Shown here in pieces: positions 5,216 through 13,742 of a stretch of DNA of 16,536 nt. Made by a program: the position numbers and the translations under genes. The DNA comes from Thermoproteota archaeon (GTDB lineage: Archaea > Korarchaeota > Korarchaeia > B14-G2): positions 1-16,536 of the forward strand of contig QMWA01000017.1 in assembly GCA_003661385.1 (NCBI GenBank), given 5' to 3'. The notes below the pieces were generated by a model. It did not search any database and was not told where the DNA came from. It worked only from the letters and a program-made list of their open reading frames with translations. Numbering within the stretch: position 1 is the first letter of the stretch; the number at the start of each line of letters is the position of its first letter.

Positions 5216-6136
5216 TTGAGGGTGTGCAGGCACTGTGGGAGCCGGGCTGGCGAGGTTAGAGTAGGCTATGCTAGGATGTGGCTCTGCAGAGACTGCTTCA
5301 CCAGGTTCTTTGAGAGGAAGGTCAGGAGGACGCTTGAGAAGTACAGGATGCTCAAGGGCGTCAGCAGGCTTGCTGTAGCTGTTTCAGGAGGGAAGGATAG
5401 CGCTGCCCTGCTGGCTGCTCTCGCTAGGCTTGAGCTAGGAATCGAGCTGGCTCCCATACACTTGAACCTGGGGATCCCAGGGTACTCTAGTGAGTGTGAG
5501 AGGAAGGCTAGGGAGCTAGCTGAGCACCTTGGGCTTAGGCTCCAGGTCTTCAAGCTCGAGGAGGAGGGGTTCACTGTTGGGATGCTGGGTGAGACCAGGC
5601 TGAGGAGGAGGGCTTGCGCAGCATGTAGCACTGTGAGGAGGTACTGGCTTAACAGGCTTGCTAGGGAGCTTGATGCTCAAGCTGTTGCTACAGGCCATAA
5701 CCTTGATGACACTGTTGAGGTGCTGTTCAACGCGTACTTCACTGGAGACTTGGAGACCATAGCTAGGCTTAAGCCAGCTCTGCCAGCTAGGGGGAAGCTC
5801 GTGGCCAGGATTAAGCCTCTGATAGCTCTGACGGAGGAGGAGGCCCTGGAGTACGCTGAGATCCTGGAGCTCCCGTTTACCAGCGTGAAGTGCCCTCTAG
5901 GCAAGGGGTCTAGGAGCTTGAGGAGGAAGAAGCTGATTGAGACGATAGCTGAGGAGGTTCCTGGGTACAAGCACACCTTCCTCTCAGCTCACCTCAGGGT
6001 TTTTCAGCCCATGGCTGAGGAGCATGCTGAGCTGGGTGAGCTCGGGGAGTGCAGGCTGTGTGGTGAGCCTAGCTCTCAGGAGGTTTGCGGGTACTGTAGG
6101 GTTAAGTCTGCTGTCAGAGCCTATCTAGCTTCCTGA
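5216..6136 (+). CDS. TtuA/Ncs6-family tRNA 2-thiouridine synthase
   Basis: A 306-residue PP-loop ATPase that adenylates a uridine in tRNA and replaces its oxygen with sulfur. All family landmarks are present: an N-terminal zinc site (C4, C7, C24, C27), the PP-loop SGGKDS at 57-62, the cluster/catalytic cysteines C134-x2-C137, a third cysteine C226 (VKCPLGKGS), HNLDD at 161-165, and a C-terminal zinc site (C279, C282, C291, C294). C134, C137 and C226 correspond to the three residues that hold the 4Fe-4S cluster in TtuA. Whether the target is position 34 or position 54 cannot be told from sequence alone. The start TTG 5216 is preceded by GGTG at 5206-5209. It follows the HExxH gene in one operon and overlaps the convergent SRPBCC gene by 23 bp at the 3' end. 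Confidence 0.9.
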   Translation: MRVCRHCGSRAGEVRVGYARMWLCRDCFTRFFERKVRRTLEKYRMLKGVSRLAVAVSGGKDSAALLAALARLELGIELAPIHLNLGIPGYSSECERKARELAEHLGLRLQVFKLEEEGFTVGMLGETRLRRRACAACSTVRRYWLNRLARELDAQAVATGHNLDDTVEVLFNAYFTGDLETIARLKPALPARGKLVARIKPLIALTEEEALEYAEILELPFTSVKCPLGKGSRSLRRKKLIETIAEEVPGYKHTFLSAHLRVFQPMAEEHAELGELGECRLCGEPSSQEVCGYCRVKSAVRAYLAS

Positions 6137-6554
6137 GGCTGTCCATGAGGCTCCTCCTGAGCTTGTATGCTATCAGCTTCTCTAGGATCGCTTTAGCTGG
6201 CTGAGGCATGTCCAGCTGGAACTCCAGTATGAGCTTCACCCTGGTTTTCCTCGGGCTGAGCTGCTCGTATAGGCCTTCAAGGGAGTACTCTCTGAGCGGG
6301 CCTCTGAGCTTCTCGACCATGATGTCTCTGAACCTCCTTAGCGGCTCCCACTCTATGGCTTCTGTTATGAACTCGAACTCTGATCCAGCTACCTCAGCCC
6401 TGTAGTACACCCTAGAGCCCTTTCCAAGCTGCCCTGCTACCCTCCTGGCCTCGTATATAGACTCTATCCACTTCGGGGCGTTCTCCCCGTCTGCAGTGAA
6501 CCAGAAGACCCTCTGAACGGGGGACTTCACTACACGCTCAACAACCACCTTCAA
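6114..6554 (-). CDS. SRPBCC / polyketide-cyclase-like protein (paralogue 2)
   Basis: A 146-residue protein with the same layout as the gene at 1337-1801: VVKSPVQRVFWFTADGENAPKWI at the N-terminus, EARRV, a GKGSRVYYRAEV strand, EFITEAIEWEPL, and a long C-terminal helix. The helix-grip fold binds a small hydrophobic ligand; the ligand is unknown. Start TTG 6554-6552 is preceded by GGTG at 6563-6560 with 5 nt spacing and by a CTTAAG element 25 bp further upstream. The final codons overlap the tail of the convergent tRNA thiolase gene by 23 bp. Having two copies 4.5 kb apart on opposite strands suggests dispersed duplication followed by divergence. Confidence 0.75.
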   Translation of the reverse strand: MKVVVERVVKSPVQRVFWFTADGENAPKWIESIYEARRVAGQLGKGSRVYYRAEVAGSEFEFITEAIEWEPLRRFRDIMVEKLRGPLREYSLEGLYEQLSPRKTRVKLILEFQLDMPQPAKAILEKLIAYKLRRSLMDSLRKLDRL

Positions 6555-6738: not shown

Positions 6739-6746
6739 CTTTAAAT
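6739..6746 (+). promoter_or_regulatory. TATA box of the zinc-ribbon/KaiC/AEP operon
   Basis: CTTTAAAT is centred 25 bp from GGTG at 6768-6771. It contains the ATG at 6745, so that ATG cannot be the start of the first gene; translation should begin at TTG 6778. Confidence 0.7.
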
Positions 6747-6777
6747 GCCCTGCTGGCTTGGATTGCTGGTGTGTACT

Positions 6778-6951
6778 TTGGCTAGTGAGCAGTGTGAGCA
6801 TGGTGATGTTGAGCTTCTTGGAACCGAGAAGGGGGAGAGGGGGGTTAACAAGTACTTTAGGTGTAGGAAGTGTGGTGCTGTGCTAGTTCTCTCTGAGGAG
6901 GGGGTCCTGTACGAGGTTCCAGCAGCGAGGGAGCAGCTGGGATCCCGTTAA
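6778..6951 (+). CDS. Small zinc-ribbon protein
   Basis: A 57-residue protein with C6-x-H8 near the N-terminus and C29-x2-C32 in the strand YFRCRKCGAVLVL, a one-ribbon zinc site. Such small proteins usually act as nucleic-acid or protein adaptors. I chose TTG 6778 because it follows GGTG (6768-6771) by 6 nt and a TATA box by about 36 bp; the upstream in-frame ATG 6745 is inside the TATA box. It is the first gene of an operon with a KaiC-like ATPase and a primase-like protein. Its last residues overlap the region where the next gene's frame already encodes family-like sequence one base out of phase, so the two may form a fusion or a frameshifted product. Function unknown. Confidence 0.6.
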   Translation: MASEQCEHGDVELLGTEKGERGVNKYFRCRKCGAVLVLSEEGVLYEVPAAREQLGSR

Positions 6952-6988
6952 GCTGCTTGCTGGTGTTCTAGCTGAGAACCCTGGCTTC

Positions 6989-8302
6989 ATGCTCTCAGTT
7001 AGAGGTGAGGCTGGCTCAGGTAAGACTATACTAGCCCTCCAGCTGCTATCCGCTCTCTCAAGTAAGCTGAAGCCCATCTACATATCGAGCAGGGTTACTC
7101 CTCAGAAGCTCTACTCTAGTTACCCTTGGGTTAAGAGCTCTCTTCCAGCAGATGCGGTGGTAGATGCAACTAAGCCCTCAGAGGAGGGAGGGCTAGGGAT
7201 GCTCAGGTACATTGACAAGCCATCCTTCATCAGAGCTTTAGTAGGACTACTTGAGCGAAGAGGCGAGGCTATAGCTGCAGTTGACAGCGTTGAGGGAGTT
7301 AAGAGCTCTATCGGAGCTGACTTCATGGACCTCAGCCTAGAGGAGGACTTGATAGCGCTAGCTGAAGGCCACGGCTGCAGGCTGATACTCTTGTATGAGG
7401 GGAGCAAGGCAGCAGACTACCTGGCTGACGGTGTGGTTGAGCTATCCTACAGCGACTATGAGGGGGCTAGGCTGAGGAGGATAAACATCAGGAAGCTCAG
7501 AGGGTACTCTGTTGAGAAGCCTGAGAGGGTTTTCACGCTGGATGGAGGTAGGCTGAGAGCTCTACCCCATAGCCCGGTCTACAGGTACCCTACTGGAGTG
7601 AAGTGGAAGCCTAAGCCTGAAAGAGAGGGGTACTTCACAGCTGGGATCCCATTGCTAGACGAGCTAGTTGGTGGCCTGCCAGCTGGAGGAACCCTATTAC
7701 TGAGCTTAGAGGACAATGTGCCAAGTGAAGCTGTGTGCTCTATCCTGTACCCTATGCTAGCTGACTTCGTGTCCAAGGGTAGGCCTATATTCCTGCTTCC
7801 CTCTCACTCTGTAGTCCTGCTTCCAGCCTTCCTCAGCATCCTCAAGTACTTCGAGAACCTCATGGACCTCTTCCTGCATGCTATAGAGAAGGAGATGGCT
7901 GGTAAGATGGACAAGTTCCACGTCGTCTACAGGGCTGGAGAAGCCTACTCACTCTACAGGGAGTGGCTTAAGAGGTGTAGAGCCGCCTCAGGAGGGAAGC
8001 CTGTCCTCTCAGTGGTCGGCTTAGACACCCTGGAGCACAGGTTTGAGCTTAGGGATGCGATTGCAGCCTTAAGCAGGATGGTCTCTGATGTGAGGAGGTT
8101 TGGGTGGCTTCTAGTCTTGATCTCGACAAGCTCCTCTCCTGAGCTCAGTGGGGTTGCAGCTACCGTAGCTGGCAGGCACATCAGGCTTGAGTACAGGCTT
8201 GGAGCGGTTGTAGTCAGAGGAGTCAAGCCCTCAACATTTACCGTAGCAGTTGAGCCCCTCAGGGAAGGCGAAGCTGTCCCTGAGCTTGTTAAGCTGGTTT
8301 AG
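6989..8302 (+). CDS. Two-domain KaiC/RAD55-like ATPase, second P-loop degenerate
   Basis: A RecA-superfamily protein of at least 437 residues. Domain 1 has Walker A GEAGSGKT (6-13 from ATG 6989) and Walker B AIAAVDSVEG (D99). Domain 2 begins GIPLLDELVGGLPAGG (219-234) exactly like a KaiC domain, but the P-loop position reads SLEDNVPSEAV, without GKT, so it probably cannot hydrolyse ATP; its Walker B region is LSVVGLDTLEH. ATG 6989 has no Shine-Dalgarno and would cut off the first strand of the fold. The same frame upstream encodes SWDPVKLLAGVLAENPGF, which looks like the true N-terminus, but has no ATG/GTG/TTG; CTG 6953 or a frameshift from the zinc-ribbon gene are options. It is followed 8 nt later by a primase-like gene. 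Confidence 0.75.
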   Translation: MLSVRGEAGSGKTILALQLLSALSSKLKPIYISSRVTPQKLYSSYPWVKSSLPADAVVDATKPSEEGGLGMLRYIDKPSFIRALVGLLERRGEAIAAVDSVEGVKSSIGADFMDLSLEEDLIALAEGHGCRLILLYEGSKAADYLADGVVELSYSDYEGARLRRINIRKLRGYSVEKPERVFTLDGGRLRALPHSPVYRYPTGVKWKPKPEREGYFTAGIPLLDELVGGLPAGGTLLLSLEDNVPSEAVCSILYPMLADFVSKGRPIFLLPSHSVVLLPAFLSILKYFENLMDLFLHAIEKEMAGKMDKFHVVYRAGEAYSLYREWLKRCRAASGGKPVLSVVGLDTLEHRFELRDAIAALSRMVSDVRRFGWLLVLISTSSSPELSGVAATVAGRHIRLEYRLGAVVVRGVKPSTFTVAVEPLREGEAVPELVKLV

Positions 8303-8310
8303 GTGGTGGC

Positions 8311-9687
8311 TTGAACCCTGAGGAGGCGCTTGAGCACTATAGCAGAGAGCTTGTGAGGAGAGAGGTTGTAGGCTTCTGTAGAGGGAGGTGGGTTGCACTC
8401 GAGTGCTACAGCAGGGAGGGGAGGCTCTTCCTGAGGTATGGTAGGGAGCAGAGGCCTCTCAGCCTGTCCAGCGAGGAGGAGCTTGAGCAGCTGCTCAAGA
8501 GGTACAGGGGGCTTAAGCCCAGGTCAGTGTACGCCTCAGCTAACGTCTACAGGAGGCTTGAGAGCCAGGAGGACACTGAGAGCAGGGAGAACATCATGCT
8601 ATGTACCCCTACATGGGACATAGACTGCAGGCTAAGCGACTGGAGAGCTGCACTTGAGGCAGCTAGAGCTGTAGTAGACTACCTTGAGAAGGCGGGGGTA
8701 GCTGAGTCTGTGTACTTGAAGTGGAGCGGTGAAGGAGTGCACGTCCATGTCCATGAGAGGGCTTTCTCACAGAGCTTGCTGAGGAAGGCTTCCCCCCTAG
8801 ACCTAGCTTACTCCGTTGTCGAGTATGTTGCAAGGCAGGTTCAGAGCAAGGTCAGTGAGCTAGCTGATAGGGGGGTTAAGCTAGAGAACGTGATGGACTT
8901 GAAGAGGGTGTTCACAGCACCCCTCTCACTACACAGGAAGCTAGACCTCTGCTGCGTGTGCTTTAAGCCAGGTGACCTAGACAGCTTTGAGCTGGAGTGG
9001 GCTGACCCAAAGGCTCCAAGGCACAGCATGGACTGGAGGAAGTACAGTGAGGGGGAGCTAGACCACCTAGCTGAGAAGGCCTTAGCTGCAGTAGGAGGCT
9101 ACCCAGGCTGGCCTGGCTCAGCCAGGAAGGCTGCTAGGCCTGCTGTAGGCAGAGCTAGGAGGCCCTCTGGGGAAGGGAGGCTTGGTAGGTTACAGGTGAT
9201 GGCGTTGCTTCAGGCTGCTAGATACTACCTGCTTACAGGAGACATCGAGAAGGCGAAGTCTTTTGGGCTGAACAGGGCTATATTCTACGCCTGGGCGAAG
9301 CACTATGGGCCTAGAGGGAGGCCTAAAGCGAGGAGAGGCAGGGGGAGAGCCCCTGCTATGGCAGCTGAGAGAGCTGAGGAGGAGAGGGAGGGGGAGAGGG
9401 TGGTCTACATAGGAGACGAGGGGGCTTTCATCTCTGATAGAGGGTGGTTTAAGATAGGTGACATGGAGCAGACTCCAGAGGACTATGATAGGCAGGTAAA
9501 GTCTAGGATAGAGGCTGTGATGAGCTATGATGAGGCGTGGGAGGCTGCAGTAAGCTACCTGAGGAAGTTCCCGAGGGAGGTCCTGCTTAGCCAGCAGAGG
9601 TTCTTCAGCCAGGCCTACAAGCCTGTGAGAGACAAGTTCATGGAGGTAGCTGGCAAGAGGAAGAGGACGCTAGAGGACTGGTGGTAG
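8311..9687 (+). CDS. Archaeo-eukaryotic-primase (AEP)-like protein
   Basis: A 458-residue protein with the three AEP catalytic motifs in order: motif I TWDIDC (D103, D105), motif II SGEGVHVHVH (139-148) and motif III KRVFTAPLSLHRKLDL (198-213). AEP enzymes make RNA or DNA primers or fill gaps. It is not a standard PriS: the N-terminal 95 residues, the basic Arg/Gly linker (about 335-350) and the C-terminal helical module (GAFISDRGWFKIGDMEQTPE, then helices to 458) differ from the replicative small subunit. A cysteine pair, LCCVC at 213-217, follows motif III. Start TTG 8311 lies behind GGTGGTGG (8302-8309), 8 nt after the KaiC-like gene, so the two are co-transcribed. A repair, plasmid/virus-derived or accessory-replication role is inference. 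Confidence 0.7.
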   Translation: MNPEEALEHYSRELVRREVVGFCRGRWVALECYSREGRLFLRYGREQRPLSLSSEEELEQLLKRYRGLKPRSVYASANVYRRLESQEDTESRENIMLCTPTWDIDCRLSDWRAALEAARAVVDYLEKAGVAESVYLKWSGEGVHVHVHERAFSQSLLRKASPLDLAYSVVEYVARQVQSKVSELADRGVKLENVMDLKRVFTAPLSLHRKLDLCCVCFKPGDLDSFELEWADPKAPRHSMDWRKYSEGELDHLAEKALAAVGGYPGWPGSARKAARPAVGRARRPSGEGRLGRLQVMALLQAARYYLLTGDIEKAKSFGLNRAIFYAWAKHYGPRGRPKARRGRGRAPAMAAERAEEEREGERVVYIGDEGAFISDRGWFKIGDMEQTPEDYDRQVKSRIEAVMSYDEAWEAAVSYLRKFPREVLLSQQRFFSQAYKPVRDKFMEVAGKRKRTLEDWW

Positions 9688-10990: not shown

Positions 10991-11653
10991 CTAGCTCTTG
11001 AGCTTGATCCACTTGCCTACTTGAGCCTGCCTTGGGACAGCTAGCCTGACGTACCTCCTGACCTGCTCGCTCCAGAGCACTCTACGCTCCTCTACCTTCA
11101 GCTCTAGTGTGTAGTCTGCTATGTGCCTGAGGCTCTCTTGGAAGCTCTTCGAGTGTACTCCCTGCTCTAGCGTGGCTGCTATGGAGTTCCCTCTGAGAGC
11201 TGCCTTGACTCTGAGCGTGTCAAGGAACCTCCATACGCTGTCAGCTGGGAAGTGGAATGCTAGCGTCGTTATGGAGTCTACAGCCATCCTCCATGGGCTA
11301 GTAGCCTCAGCTTCAGCTATGATGGCATCCAGGGTTGTGACCGGCTTGTACCTCATGTCTCCAACCAGCACTCCACCCCTCCAAGTGAAGAAGTCTAGTA
11401 TGTGCAGCAAGCCCTCCTTAAGCTTCTCAGATAAGTCTACCTTGACATGCCCCTGTAGCTCCAGCTCGAACCTGTGAGGAGGCTCATCTACGACAGCTGC
11501 CAGACAGGGCTCCTCTCTAGCTAGGCCTTCAGCCAGGTACCTCTTGACCAAGGTGGACTTCCCGCTGCCAGGCGGCCCCAGTATCAGCAGAAGCCCTCCT
11601 CCAACTGGGTTAGCGAGCATGTCTAGAGGGCTAGACAAAGGTGAACCTACCAT
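10991..11653 (-). CDS. KaiC/RAD55-like single-domain ATPase (minus paralogue B)
   Basis: A 220-residue RecA-superfamily ATPase. Walker A is GPPGSGKS (26-33) and Walker B is RMAVDSITTL (D126). After the second strand, the position where KaiC proteins usually have two glutamates reads VVDEPPHRF. It is clearly paralogous to its upstream neighbour: AEGLxRxEPCLA, DxPP, a WRxG segment, and TLEQxVHxxxFExxLxxxA all align. Short RAD55/KaiC-like proteins like these act as regulatory or recombination-related ATPases; the partner is unknown. Start ATG 11653 is about 31 bp from a TATA box (11681-11688) that overlaps the stop codon of the upstream gene, so it may have its own promoter as well as read-through. 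Confidence 0.8.
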   Translation of the reverse strand: MVGSPLSSPLDMLANPVGGGLLLILGPPGSGKSTLVKRYLAEGLAREEPCLAAVVDEPPHRFELELQGHVKVDLSEKLKEGLLHILDFFTWRGGVLVGDMRYKPVTTLDAIIAEAEATSPWRMAVDSITTLAFHFPADSVWRFLDTLRVKAALRGNSIAATLEQGVHSKSFQESLRHIADYTLELKVEERRVLWSEQVRRYVRLAVPRQAQVGKWIKLKS

Positions 11654-11680: not shown

Positions 11681-11688
11681 CCTTATAC
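11681..11688 (-). promoter_or_regulatory. TATA box of the downstream KaiC-like paralogue
   Basis: GTATAAGG on the minus strand overlaps the stop codon of the upstream paralogue and sits about 31 bp from ATG 11653. A second AT-rich stretch (TTATTAAG) follows directly and could serve instead. Confidence 0.45.
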
Positions 11689-12405
11689 CCCTATAACTCC
11701 CCCCCTTATCAGGAAGCCTCTGTCAGTCACCTCGTAGGGGAACCAGCTTGTTGAGTGAGCTACTCTAGAGGATAGCACCCTTATGTACCTCTTTATCCTG
11801 CCCTTCTCCTCTATGAGCTTCAGCTTGATCACGTTCTCAGCTAGGTAGGAGAGAGTCCTCTCGAATGCAAGCGTATGGACCTCCTGCTCTAGGGTCACGA
11901 GGCTCAGCATGCCTCCTTCAAGAATCCTAGCCCTAAGGGAGTTGAAGAACTCCCTTGCAGCTTGAAGCCCGCTGTCTAGAGCCAGGGTGCTTAAGCTGTC
12001 TAAGGCTAGCCTCCCTCTCTTCATCTCCTTCCTCAGCTTCTCTATCTCGACCATCAGAGCAGTAAGATTCCCCACTACAGGGTACTCCTGCTTCTGAGAT
12101 GGCATCCCGAGCCTCCAGCTATAGCAGTCGAGTATCCTTAGCTTCCTGACCAGCCTCGCTTCAACCAGCCACCTCTCCTCTAGGCTTCTTATGAGGTGAG
12201 CTGGCGGCATATCCGTCACGACAGCTAGGCAGGGCTCTCCTCGCTTCAGCCCTTCAGCTAGAAACTGGCCTGTGAAGGTGGACTTGCCTGAGCCTGGTGG
12301 TCCAGCCAGCAGTATCGTCCCACTTGGAATCGGCTCGTGTATGAGCTTCTCGAAACCTGGGATGACGGAGGAGGGCTTGAAGAGAGGCCTCGTGGGCGCC
12401 TGCAT
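11683..12405 (-). CDS. KaiC/RAD55-like single-domain ATPase (minus paralogue A)
   Basis: A 240-residue RecA-superfamily ATPase. The N-terminus PSSVIPGFEKLIHEPIPSG (11-29) is the standard KaiC entry to the first strand. Walker A is GPPGSGKS (35-42) and Walker B is RLALDSLSTL (D136). As in its neighbour, the segment after strand 2 is VVTDMPPAH, with no Glu-Glu pair, and a TLEQEVHTLAFERTL segment follows. These shared departures mark the two as one lineage distinct from the canonical KaiC gene at 12975. ATG 12405 follows GGAGCTGGT and lies about 41 bp from a TATA element shared with the divergent gene. The downstream paralogue begins 29 bp after its stop. Function unknown. Confidence 0.8.
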   Translation of the reverse strand: MQAPTRPLFKPSSVIPGFEKLIHEPIPSGTILLAGPPGSGKSTFTGQFLAEGLKRGEPCLAVVTDMPPAHLIRSLEERWLVEARLVRKLRILDCYSWRLGMPSQKQEYPVVGNLTALMVEIEKLRKEMKRGRLALDSLSTLALDSGLQAAREFFNSLRARILEGGMLSLVTLEQEVHTLAFERTLSYLAENVIKLKLIEEKGRIKRYIRVLSSRVAHSTSWFPYEVTDRGFLIRGGVIGV

Positions 12406-12974: not shown

Positions 12975-13742
12975 ATGCTTAGGAGAGTGAGGAGTGGAAT
13001 TCCAGGCTTCGACGACATCGTTGGAGGAGGGCTGATTAAGGGCAGAACCTACATGATACTTGGTGGCCCTGGCGCTGGGAAGACTATCTTCGCACTCCAG
13101 TTCCTCCATACTGGTGCAGCAGAGTATGGTGAGCGAGGCGTCTACGTGACGCTAGAGGAGAGCGTGGACTCCATAATGCACACCGCAAGGCAGTTCGGCT
13201 GGGACCTAGCTAAGCTAAAGCAGGAGGAGAAGATAGAGATAGTGGATGCATCGCCATTCTACTCCCCACTCGCCACATCGATGTTCGCAGTGAAGTCGCC
13301 TGGGGTCCTAGGTGAGAGAGAGTTCGACATGATGACGCTGATAACGCTCGTGAAGCAGGCTTGCAGCAGAGTCAACGCAGAGAGGATCGTCATAGACTCC
13401 CTGACCCCCCTGATACTCCAGTACAGGGAGCTCTTCGAGGCTAGGATGCAGATACTCCAGCTGACCAAGACGCTGTCTGAGCTCGAGGGCGCTACCTCGC
13501 TGATAGTAGCTGAGCTCACCTCCCCGACAGCTGAGGCCACGCTCTTCGGCATAGAGCCCTATGTGGTTGACGGAGTCATACTACTCTACAACATAAGGAG
13601 CAGAGCAGAGAGGATCAGAGCTATAGAGGTCTTGAAGATGAGGGGGTCACCACACAGCAACATGCTACACCCGTTCCAGATAACCAAGGATGGCATAGTG
13701 GTTTACCCCAAGGAGAAGGTGTTTGAGGGAGGAGTCCAGTGA
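12975..13742 (+). CDS. KaiC-domain ATPase, canonical single domain
   Basis: A 255-residue textbook single KaiC domain. It opens with VRSGIPGFDDIVGGGLIKG (5-23), Walker A GGPGAGKT (30-37), the catalytic glutamate pair in VTLEES (E61, E62), and Walker B RIVIDSLTPL (D141). The later segments VAELTS and VVDGVILLYNIR are also family features. Archaeal members are ATPases or autokinases of regulatory function; no circadian role should be assumed. There are no fused extra domains. Start ATG 12975 has a TATA box at the right distance. Its TGA overlaps the GTG start of the MetE-like gene by 4 nt, so the two are translationally coupled. Confidence 0.9.
   Translation: MLRRVRSGIPGFDDIVGGGLIKGRTYMILGGPGAGKTIFALQFLHTGAAEYGERGVYVTLEESVDSIMHTARQFGWDLAKLKQEEKIEIVDASPFYSPLATSMFAVKSPGVLGEREFDMMTLITLVKQACSRVNAERIVIDSLTPLILQYRELFEARMQILQLTKTLSELEGATSLIVAELTSPTAEATLFGIEPYVVDGVILLYNIRSRAERIRAIEVLKMRGSPHSNMLHPFQITKDGIVVYPKEKVFEGGVQ

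Follow-up and report, generated by a model that had tools for sequence, protein, structure and literature searches.

A 16,536-nucleotide stretch of a korarchaeal genome (contig QMWA01000017.1 of assembly GCA_003661385.1, referred to here as the window) raises the question of what an archaeo-eukaryotic primase (AEP) does in an archaeon that also carries a replicative primase, and whether the two genes next to it belong to the same system. Three open reading frames (ORFs), all on the forward strand between positions 6,739 and 9,687, encode a zinc ribbon, an ATPase and the AEP, and a sequence-only reading of the window had taken them for a dedicated module for DNA priming, repair or damage tolerance. 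Residue conservation and a structure model strongly support that reading in its assignment of the third ORF product to the genuine AEPs. The protein belongs to a family of chromosomal archaeal primase-polymerases, absent from the catalogues searched, which is related to PriS and has its nearest counterpart in the PriS-like half of the fused primases of DPANN archaea. The genome from which the window derives comprises 1.74 Mb in 206 contigs, and the genomes examined are mostly metagenome-assembled.

The AEP gene starts with a TTG codon at position 8311, preceded by GGTGG, and extends to 9687 (forward strand), encoding 458 amino acids. An alignment of the family of the window protein, with 77 relatives, provided both the conservation counts and the input for an AlphaFold model, in which the predicted local distance difference test score (pLDDT) averages 90 and reaches about 98 in the catalytic core (residues 1–278; 8311..9144). 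Structures were compared with Foldseek and VIA-align, and profiles with hhalign. The modelled core resembles Prim-PolC most closely (Z 20.5, 3.0 Å over 246 residues), followed by the Methanocella polymerase for non-homologous end joining (NHEJ; Z 19.7) and LigD Pol (Z 19–20), at sequence identities of only about 14–16%, and then by archaeal and human PriS (Z about 15–16).

The DxD and SGxGxHxH motifs reported from the sequence are present and invariant or nearly so in the 77 relatives, and thus they are not chance matches. Motif I, D103-I-D105 (8617..8625), has both aspartates in 77/77, and motif II, S139-G-E-G-V-H144-V-H146 (8725..8748), has S139, G140, G142 and H144 in all 77. SLHRK, on the other hand, had been named as the third motif, whereas the third acid is most likely E192, which lies just before it on a predicted strand. 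Within the motif III region, E192...D196..R199....PLSLHR (8884..8937), E192 and R199 are found in 77/77 sequences, D196 in 75 and H208 in 76. In the profile alignment to PriS, D196 stands opposite the aspartate of the PriS VTxD motif, which makes E192, four residues earlier, the most likely motif III acid and the probable third metal ligand. With the register of motif III taken from this alignment, the superfamily patterns hhhDhD/E (I), sxH (II) and hD/E (III) are all recovered, and the metal- and nucleotide-binding residues, with D103, D105, H144 and E192 among them, are invariant.

In a tree of AEP cores, the family forms its own branch with a support of 98 (Shimodaira–Hasegawa-like approximate likelihood ratio test), apart from both PriS and DPANN primases (99 each). 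None of the Pfam, NCBIfam and PHROG models claims the window protein, which scores below the cut-offs of PF01896 and primase_sml, and PF01896 matches only 12 of the 77 relatives, with E-values down to 8.7e-5 at best. Because the Pfam and NCBIfam models miss it, the family also escapes surveys based on the PF01896 cut-off (such as PMC12770985); no description of it was found in the open literature searched. The N-terminal region, which had been considered novel, is an ordinary PriS-type core, which matches the catalytic half of the fused DPANN primases over its whole length (99.7% and E=1e-25 across 255 columns).

The actual novelty of the window protein is instead its C-terminal module (residues ~290–458; 9178..9687), which follows a linker predicted to be disordered (residues 276–287; 9136..9171; pLDDT <50). 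The prediction comprises two long helices with the sequence GRxQVMxLLQAARYY...AKSFGLNRAIFYAWAK, a small beta sheet and then a helical bundle. The stretch GRFQVMxLLQAARYYLLxGDLEKAKSFGLNRAIFYAWAK is nearly invariant, and between the window protein and Korarchaeum the module is better conserved than the core (~58% versus ~44% identity). It has no match in Pfam or NCBIfam. When modelled alone (pLDDT 85, predicted template modelling score 0.81), it found no fold better than E=1.8 in the PDB with Foldseek and none better than E=0.6 in the PDB or BFVD, a null result that leaves a new fold unproven; likewise, no PDB match under E=1 pointed to the fold of PriX or of the PriL Fe-S_N domain, which is no proof of its absence. 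The module is a strongly conserved domain without a recognised fold. In Korarchaeum and others it is a separate gene, and in a sample of 398 genomes, drawn from the phylum to which a Pyrodictiaceae member belongs, it is present in 112, in about two thirds of the cases within AEP-sized frames and in the rest within shorter ones. In one genome (G139), core and module are split over two contigs (L107:7599-8885 and L108:7791-8519), and in another (G169, L109:7503-8756) a stop inside the module interrupts the fused frame.

The family occurs in 26 of 61 related genomes, and a scan of GTDB species genomes yielded 228 relatives in TACK, Asgard and some DPANN archaea, which rules out a korarchaeal speciality. 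The best 80 of these 228, the named loci in what follows, share 40–58% identity and come from Bathy-, Nezha-, Brock-, Baldr-, Odin- and Njordarchaeota, Methanomethylicota, Desulfurococcales, Thermofilales, Nitrososphaeria, Nanopusillus and others. In most cases the AEP gene stands by itself in the chromosome of a genome whose replicative primase is intact. In the window genome, PriS and PriL form a pair on a different contig (G000:C14), in line with the proposed separation of the locus from the replicative enzyme, and most other Korarchaeia likewise carry the two genes together. Of 20 named genomes that carry the AEP, spread over several phyla, 18 also have a PriS (PF01896) or a fused primase, and Nanopusillus possesses both a fused primase and a member of the family.

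The best functional clue, albeit an indirect one, is an anti-correlation with Y-family polymerases (PolY, detected as PF00817). In the 398-genome sample, PolY is found in 12 of the 112 module-positive genomes as opposed to 164 of the 286 module-negative ones (p=1e-18 in a Fisher test that ignores phylogeny), and among 50 named AEP-positive genomes belonging to many phyla, only 8 possess it. A review of primase-polymerases raises as an open problem how fork-stalling damage is tolerated in archaea that lack Y-family polymerases and other repair pathways, and so far it points to the replicative primase itself (PMC4538821). Since this question and the PolY clue converge, we tentatively favour, at slightly less than an even chance, a primase-polymerase that acts outside replication, in damage tolerance or gap filling, and the earlier proposal of a repair or damage-tolerance role gains indirect support. 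The enzyme would act beside the replicative PriS-PriL, without PriL or a zinc stem, and would extend or re-prime at single-stranded DNA gaps behind stalled forks, while the C-terminal module might bind DNA or a partner; damage tolerance would thereby be supplied in archaea of which most have no Y-family polymerase. Some gene neighbours also speak for this reading: RNase HII lies close downstream of the stand-alone module in four Korarchaeum species and of the AEP in a Brockarchaeon, and Mre11-Rad50 lie directly downstream of the AEP in a genome of the Desulfurococcales. The AEP of Korarchaeota could be loaded or regulated by a KaiC-like RecA-fold ATPase (GvpD-like in the window) in the manner of recombinase-type ATPases, which is the weakest step of the proposal. 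A broader version is doubtful: the family would be an archaeal PrimPol of wide distribution, a non-replicative second AEP with an undescribed C-terminal fold, which would replace the Y-family translesion polymerases in many PolY-less TACK archaea and would have been coupled at least twice to KaiC-like ATPases in Korarchaeota. Several points weigh against the damage-tolerance function. The nameable co-occurrences with PolY fall mainly in Brockarchaeota, Nitrososphaeria-like lineages and one Baldrarchaeon, so that the anti-correlation may rest on a small number of clade-level events. No repair gene recurs consistently across phyla in the clustered neighbourhoods, and the association of an ATPase with the full-length AEP fails outside the window genome. 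Moreover, the catalytic geometry was judged by fold and residue conservation rather than by coordinates, and the open literature searched yielded no biochemical data for any family member. A separate AEP family beside PriS-PriL, present mostly in PolY-less archaea, makes the question of damage tolerance directly testable.

A rather unlikely alternative is that zinc ribbon, ATPase and AEP act together as one dedicated functional unit, as the sequence-only reading had proposed. The three genes share a strand, and exactly 8 nt separate the stop codon of the ATPase gene from the TTG at 8311, as had been stated. The single TATA-like box (TTTAAAT; 6740..6746, forward strand) is also where it was claimed to be, about 32 nt 5' of a TTG codon at 6778, and would fit a predicted leaderless start there. 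From this TTG, the zinc ribbon (6745..6951, forward strand; pattern CxH...CxxC) has the 57 residues originally assigned to it, while a start at the ATG at 6745 gives 68. However, the arrangement is not conserved: in none of the 80 named loci does a KaiC or RecA gene lie less than 5 kb from the full-length AEP, and the ribbon and the GvpD-like ATPase reside at other sites in the other genomes examined. The full trio was seen in the window genome only, which is why it is regarded as a local arrangement and not as a conserved three-gene module. The sequence-only reading had named the lack of such neighbours in every related genome as evidence against itself, and for the full trio this lack is observed in the genomes examined. 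The zinc ribbon exists as one copy in the window genome and has relatives in 4 of 28 related genomes, none of them adjoining an AEP there. In Korarchaeum, apparent matches near the C-terminal-module gene resemble a LysW-type carrier protein, different from the window ribbon, and linkage there was rejected. A similar zinc ribbon lies about 1.1–1.2 kb downstream of the AEP, on the opposite strand, in a Wolframiiraptor-like clade (L205, L207, L209, L211 and L215; for example L205:12513-12695). Elsewhere in the window, two related START/polyketide-cyclase-like proteins (1310-1801 and 6114-6554) are apparently paralogues.

An ATPase is also linked to other AEPs. Short paralogues without the C-terminal module are present in Korarchaeia and a sister class, and in 12 of 18 korarchaeal loci a single-domain KaiC-like ATPase is encoded directly upstream on the same strand, a tie that is independent of the window trio. 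The window genome has such a second, short AEP (G000:C8:17401-18234, L038:7947-8858), which is 51% identical to the window protein, falls in the same tree group and shares a tail-to-tail overlap with a KaiC-like gene on contig 8. The ATPase in the window is of a different kind. It is a two-domain RecA-fold protein (forward strand, open frame 6887-8302, first ATG at 6989) with an intact Walker A motif, GEAGSGKT, in the first domain and the degenerate SLEDNVPSEA at the P-loop position of the second, as previously described; its nearest profile, though, is the GvpD P-loop (PF07088, 47.8 bits, E=2e-12, cut-off 24 bits), with KaiC only second (PF06745, 39.3 bits, E=6e-10, cut-off 26.6 bits), and its C-terminal half weakly matches GvpD basic-region-2 (bR2). 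As the two ATPases differ, the link to AEPs arose with two different ATPases, and within the korarchaeal phylum it is real but looser than was first proposed. Homologues of the window ATPase are situated at other sites in Korarchaeia genomes. Because similarity to its paralogues begins 5' of the ATG at 6989, its translation may start at a non-ATG codon near 6953. Three more KaiC-like ORFs are clustered just downstream in the window, at 10991-11653 and 11683-12405 on the reverse strand and at 12975-13742 on the forward strand.

Two further observations concern the short AEPs and their neighbours. In three members of one korarchaeal clade, L040:7947-8819, L042:7962-8804 and L045:7866-8852, and in no other short AEP aligned, E192 is replaced by alanine or cysteine, and consequently these proteins may be catalytically dead; loss of D196 was dropped as a mark of dead short AEPs, because E192 emerges as the catalytic acid from the alignment with PriS and DPANN sequences. 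An intein-like insertion, at the same site before SEAFGFGLEHIADG in three genomes of the phylum, enlarges the KaiC-like ATPase that is encoded upstream of the short AEP from the usual length of about 265 aa to 823 aa (L049:5425-7896), 802 aa (L047:970-3378) and at least 531 aa (L043:8842-10437).

The AEP could also be a second, PriL-independent replicative primase that shares the priming of Okazaki fragments, with the C-terminal module in the role of the PriL C-terminal domain (PriL-CTD). Its core is nearest by profile to the catalytic half of the DPANN fused PriS-PriL, the layout of an AEP followed by a C-terminal part of 150–200 aa is alike, and its RNase HII neighbours would fit the handling of RNA primers: in four Korarchaeum species (L062:7968-9164, L064, L060 and L057), the stand-alone module gene shares a strand with an RNase HII gene located 4–28 nt downstream of it, and a Brockarchaeon has RNase HII 147 nt downstream of the AEP. 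We consider this unlikely, since the module shows no detectable similarity to PriL-CTD or to the DPANN C-termini (hhalign 0.1%, against 97% for the positive control), the family alignment reveals no conserved cysteines for an iron–sulphur cluster in it, the same genomes keep PriS-PriL or a fused primase, and only 112 of the 398 genomes sampled in one phylum have the module. Just as unlikely is a polymerase for end joining or gap-filling repair of the LigD Pol or Prim-PolC kind, to which the top structural scores, including that of the archaeal Methanocella enzyme, and the Mre11-Rad50 genes next to the AEP in a single Desulfurococcales genome would point. By profile, the family is nearer to PriS and the DPANN primases, and its match to the LigD Pfam model is marginal (E about 0.001–0.03). 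The model aligns to LigD of Mycobacterium tuberculosis from residue 27 onward, and hence no counterpart is seen of the LigD N-terminal segment, which carries the 5'-phosphate-binding residues in that enzyme. Neither a ligase nor Ku was recognised in the inspected neighbourhoods, in which no search was aimed at either.

That the protein is a mobile-element remnant or a defence-associated AEP is very improbable: AEPs are often borne on mobile elements (PMC5862659) and one of the structural matches is CRISPR-associated Prim-Pol (Z ~13), but there are no relatives among 50,697 phage records and 72,556 plasmids or in IMG/VR, no defence-gene matches to the three window proteins, and no prominence of element genes among the neighbours of the 80 named loci.

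As the sequence-only reading had suspected, no described system of this composition was found in the open literature searched; the closest known systems compare with it as follows. With the DPANN cluster-2 fused PriS-PriL primase of the Nanoarchaeum equitans type (PMC7414124; PMC2643942), it shares a collinear AEP core and a C-terminal extension in one polypeptide; it differs in the unrelated C-terminal part, in forming a separate clade and in coexisting with such a primase in Nanopusillus. Archaeal PriS has the same fold and motifs I–III, and its PGSLHGK corresponds to the PLSLHR of the family, which is set apart by scores under the Pfam and NCBIfam cut-offs, a long stem branch and its coexistence with PriS-PriL. 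LigD Pol, Prim-PolC and the Methanocella NHEJ polymerase are the closest solved folds (Z ~20), yet no counterpart of the LigD N-terminal segment is seen, and the window family has a different, conserved C-terminal module. GvpD and KaiC, above whose profile cut-offs the window ATPase scores, differ from it in that the latter has no gas-vesicle or clock context, has a degenerate second P-loop and adjoins an AEP in the window genome only. Eukaryotic PrimPol (PMC4538821) is alike solely in the proposed role, that of an additional AEP which serves repriming or translesion synthesis and not replication; no sequence link to it is shown here, and the family has no UL52-type zinc domain but a C-terminal module that is, as far as can be seen, unrelated.

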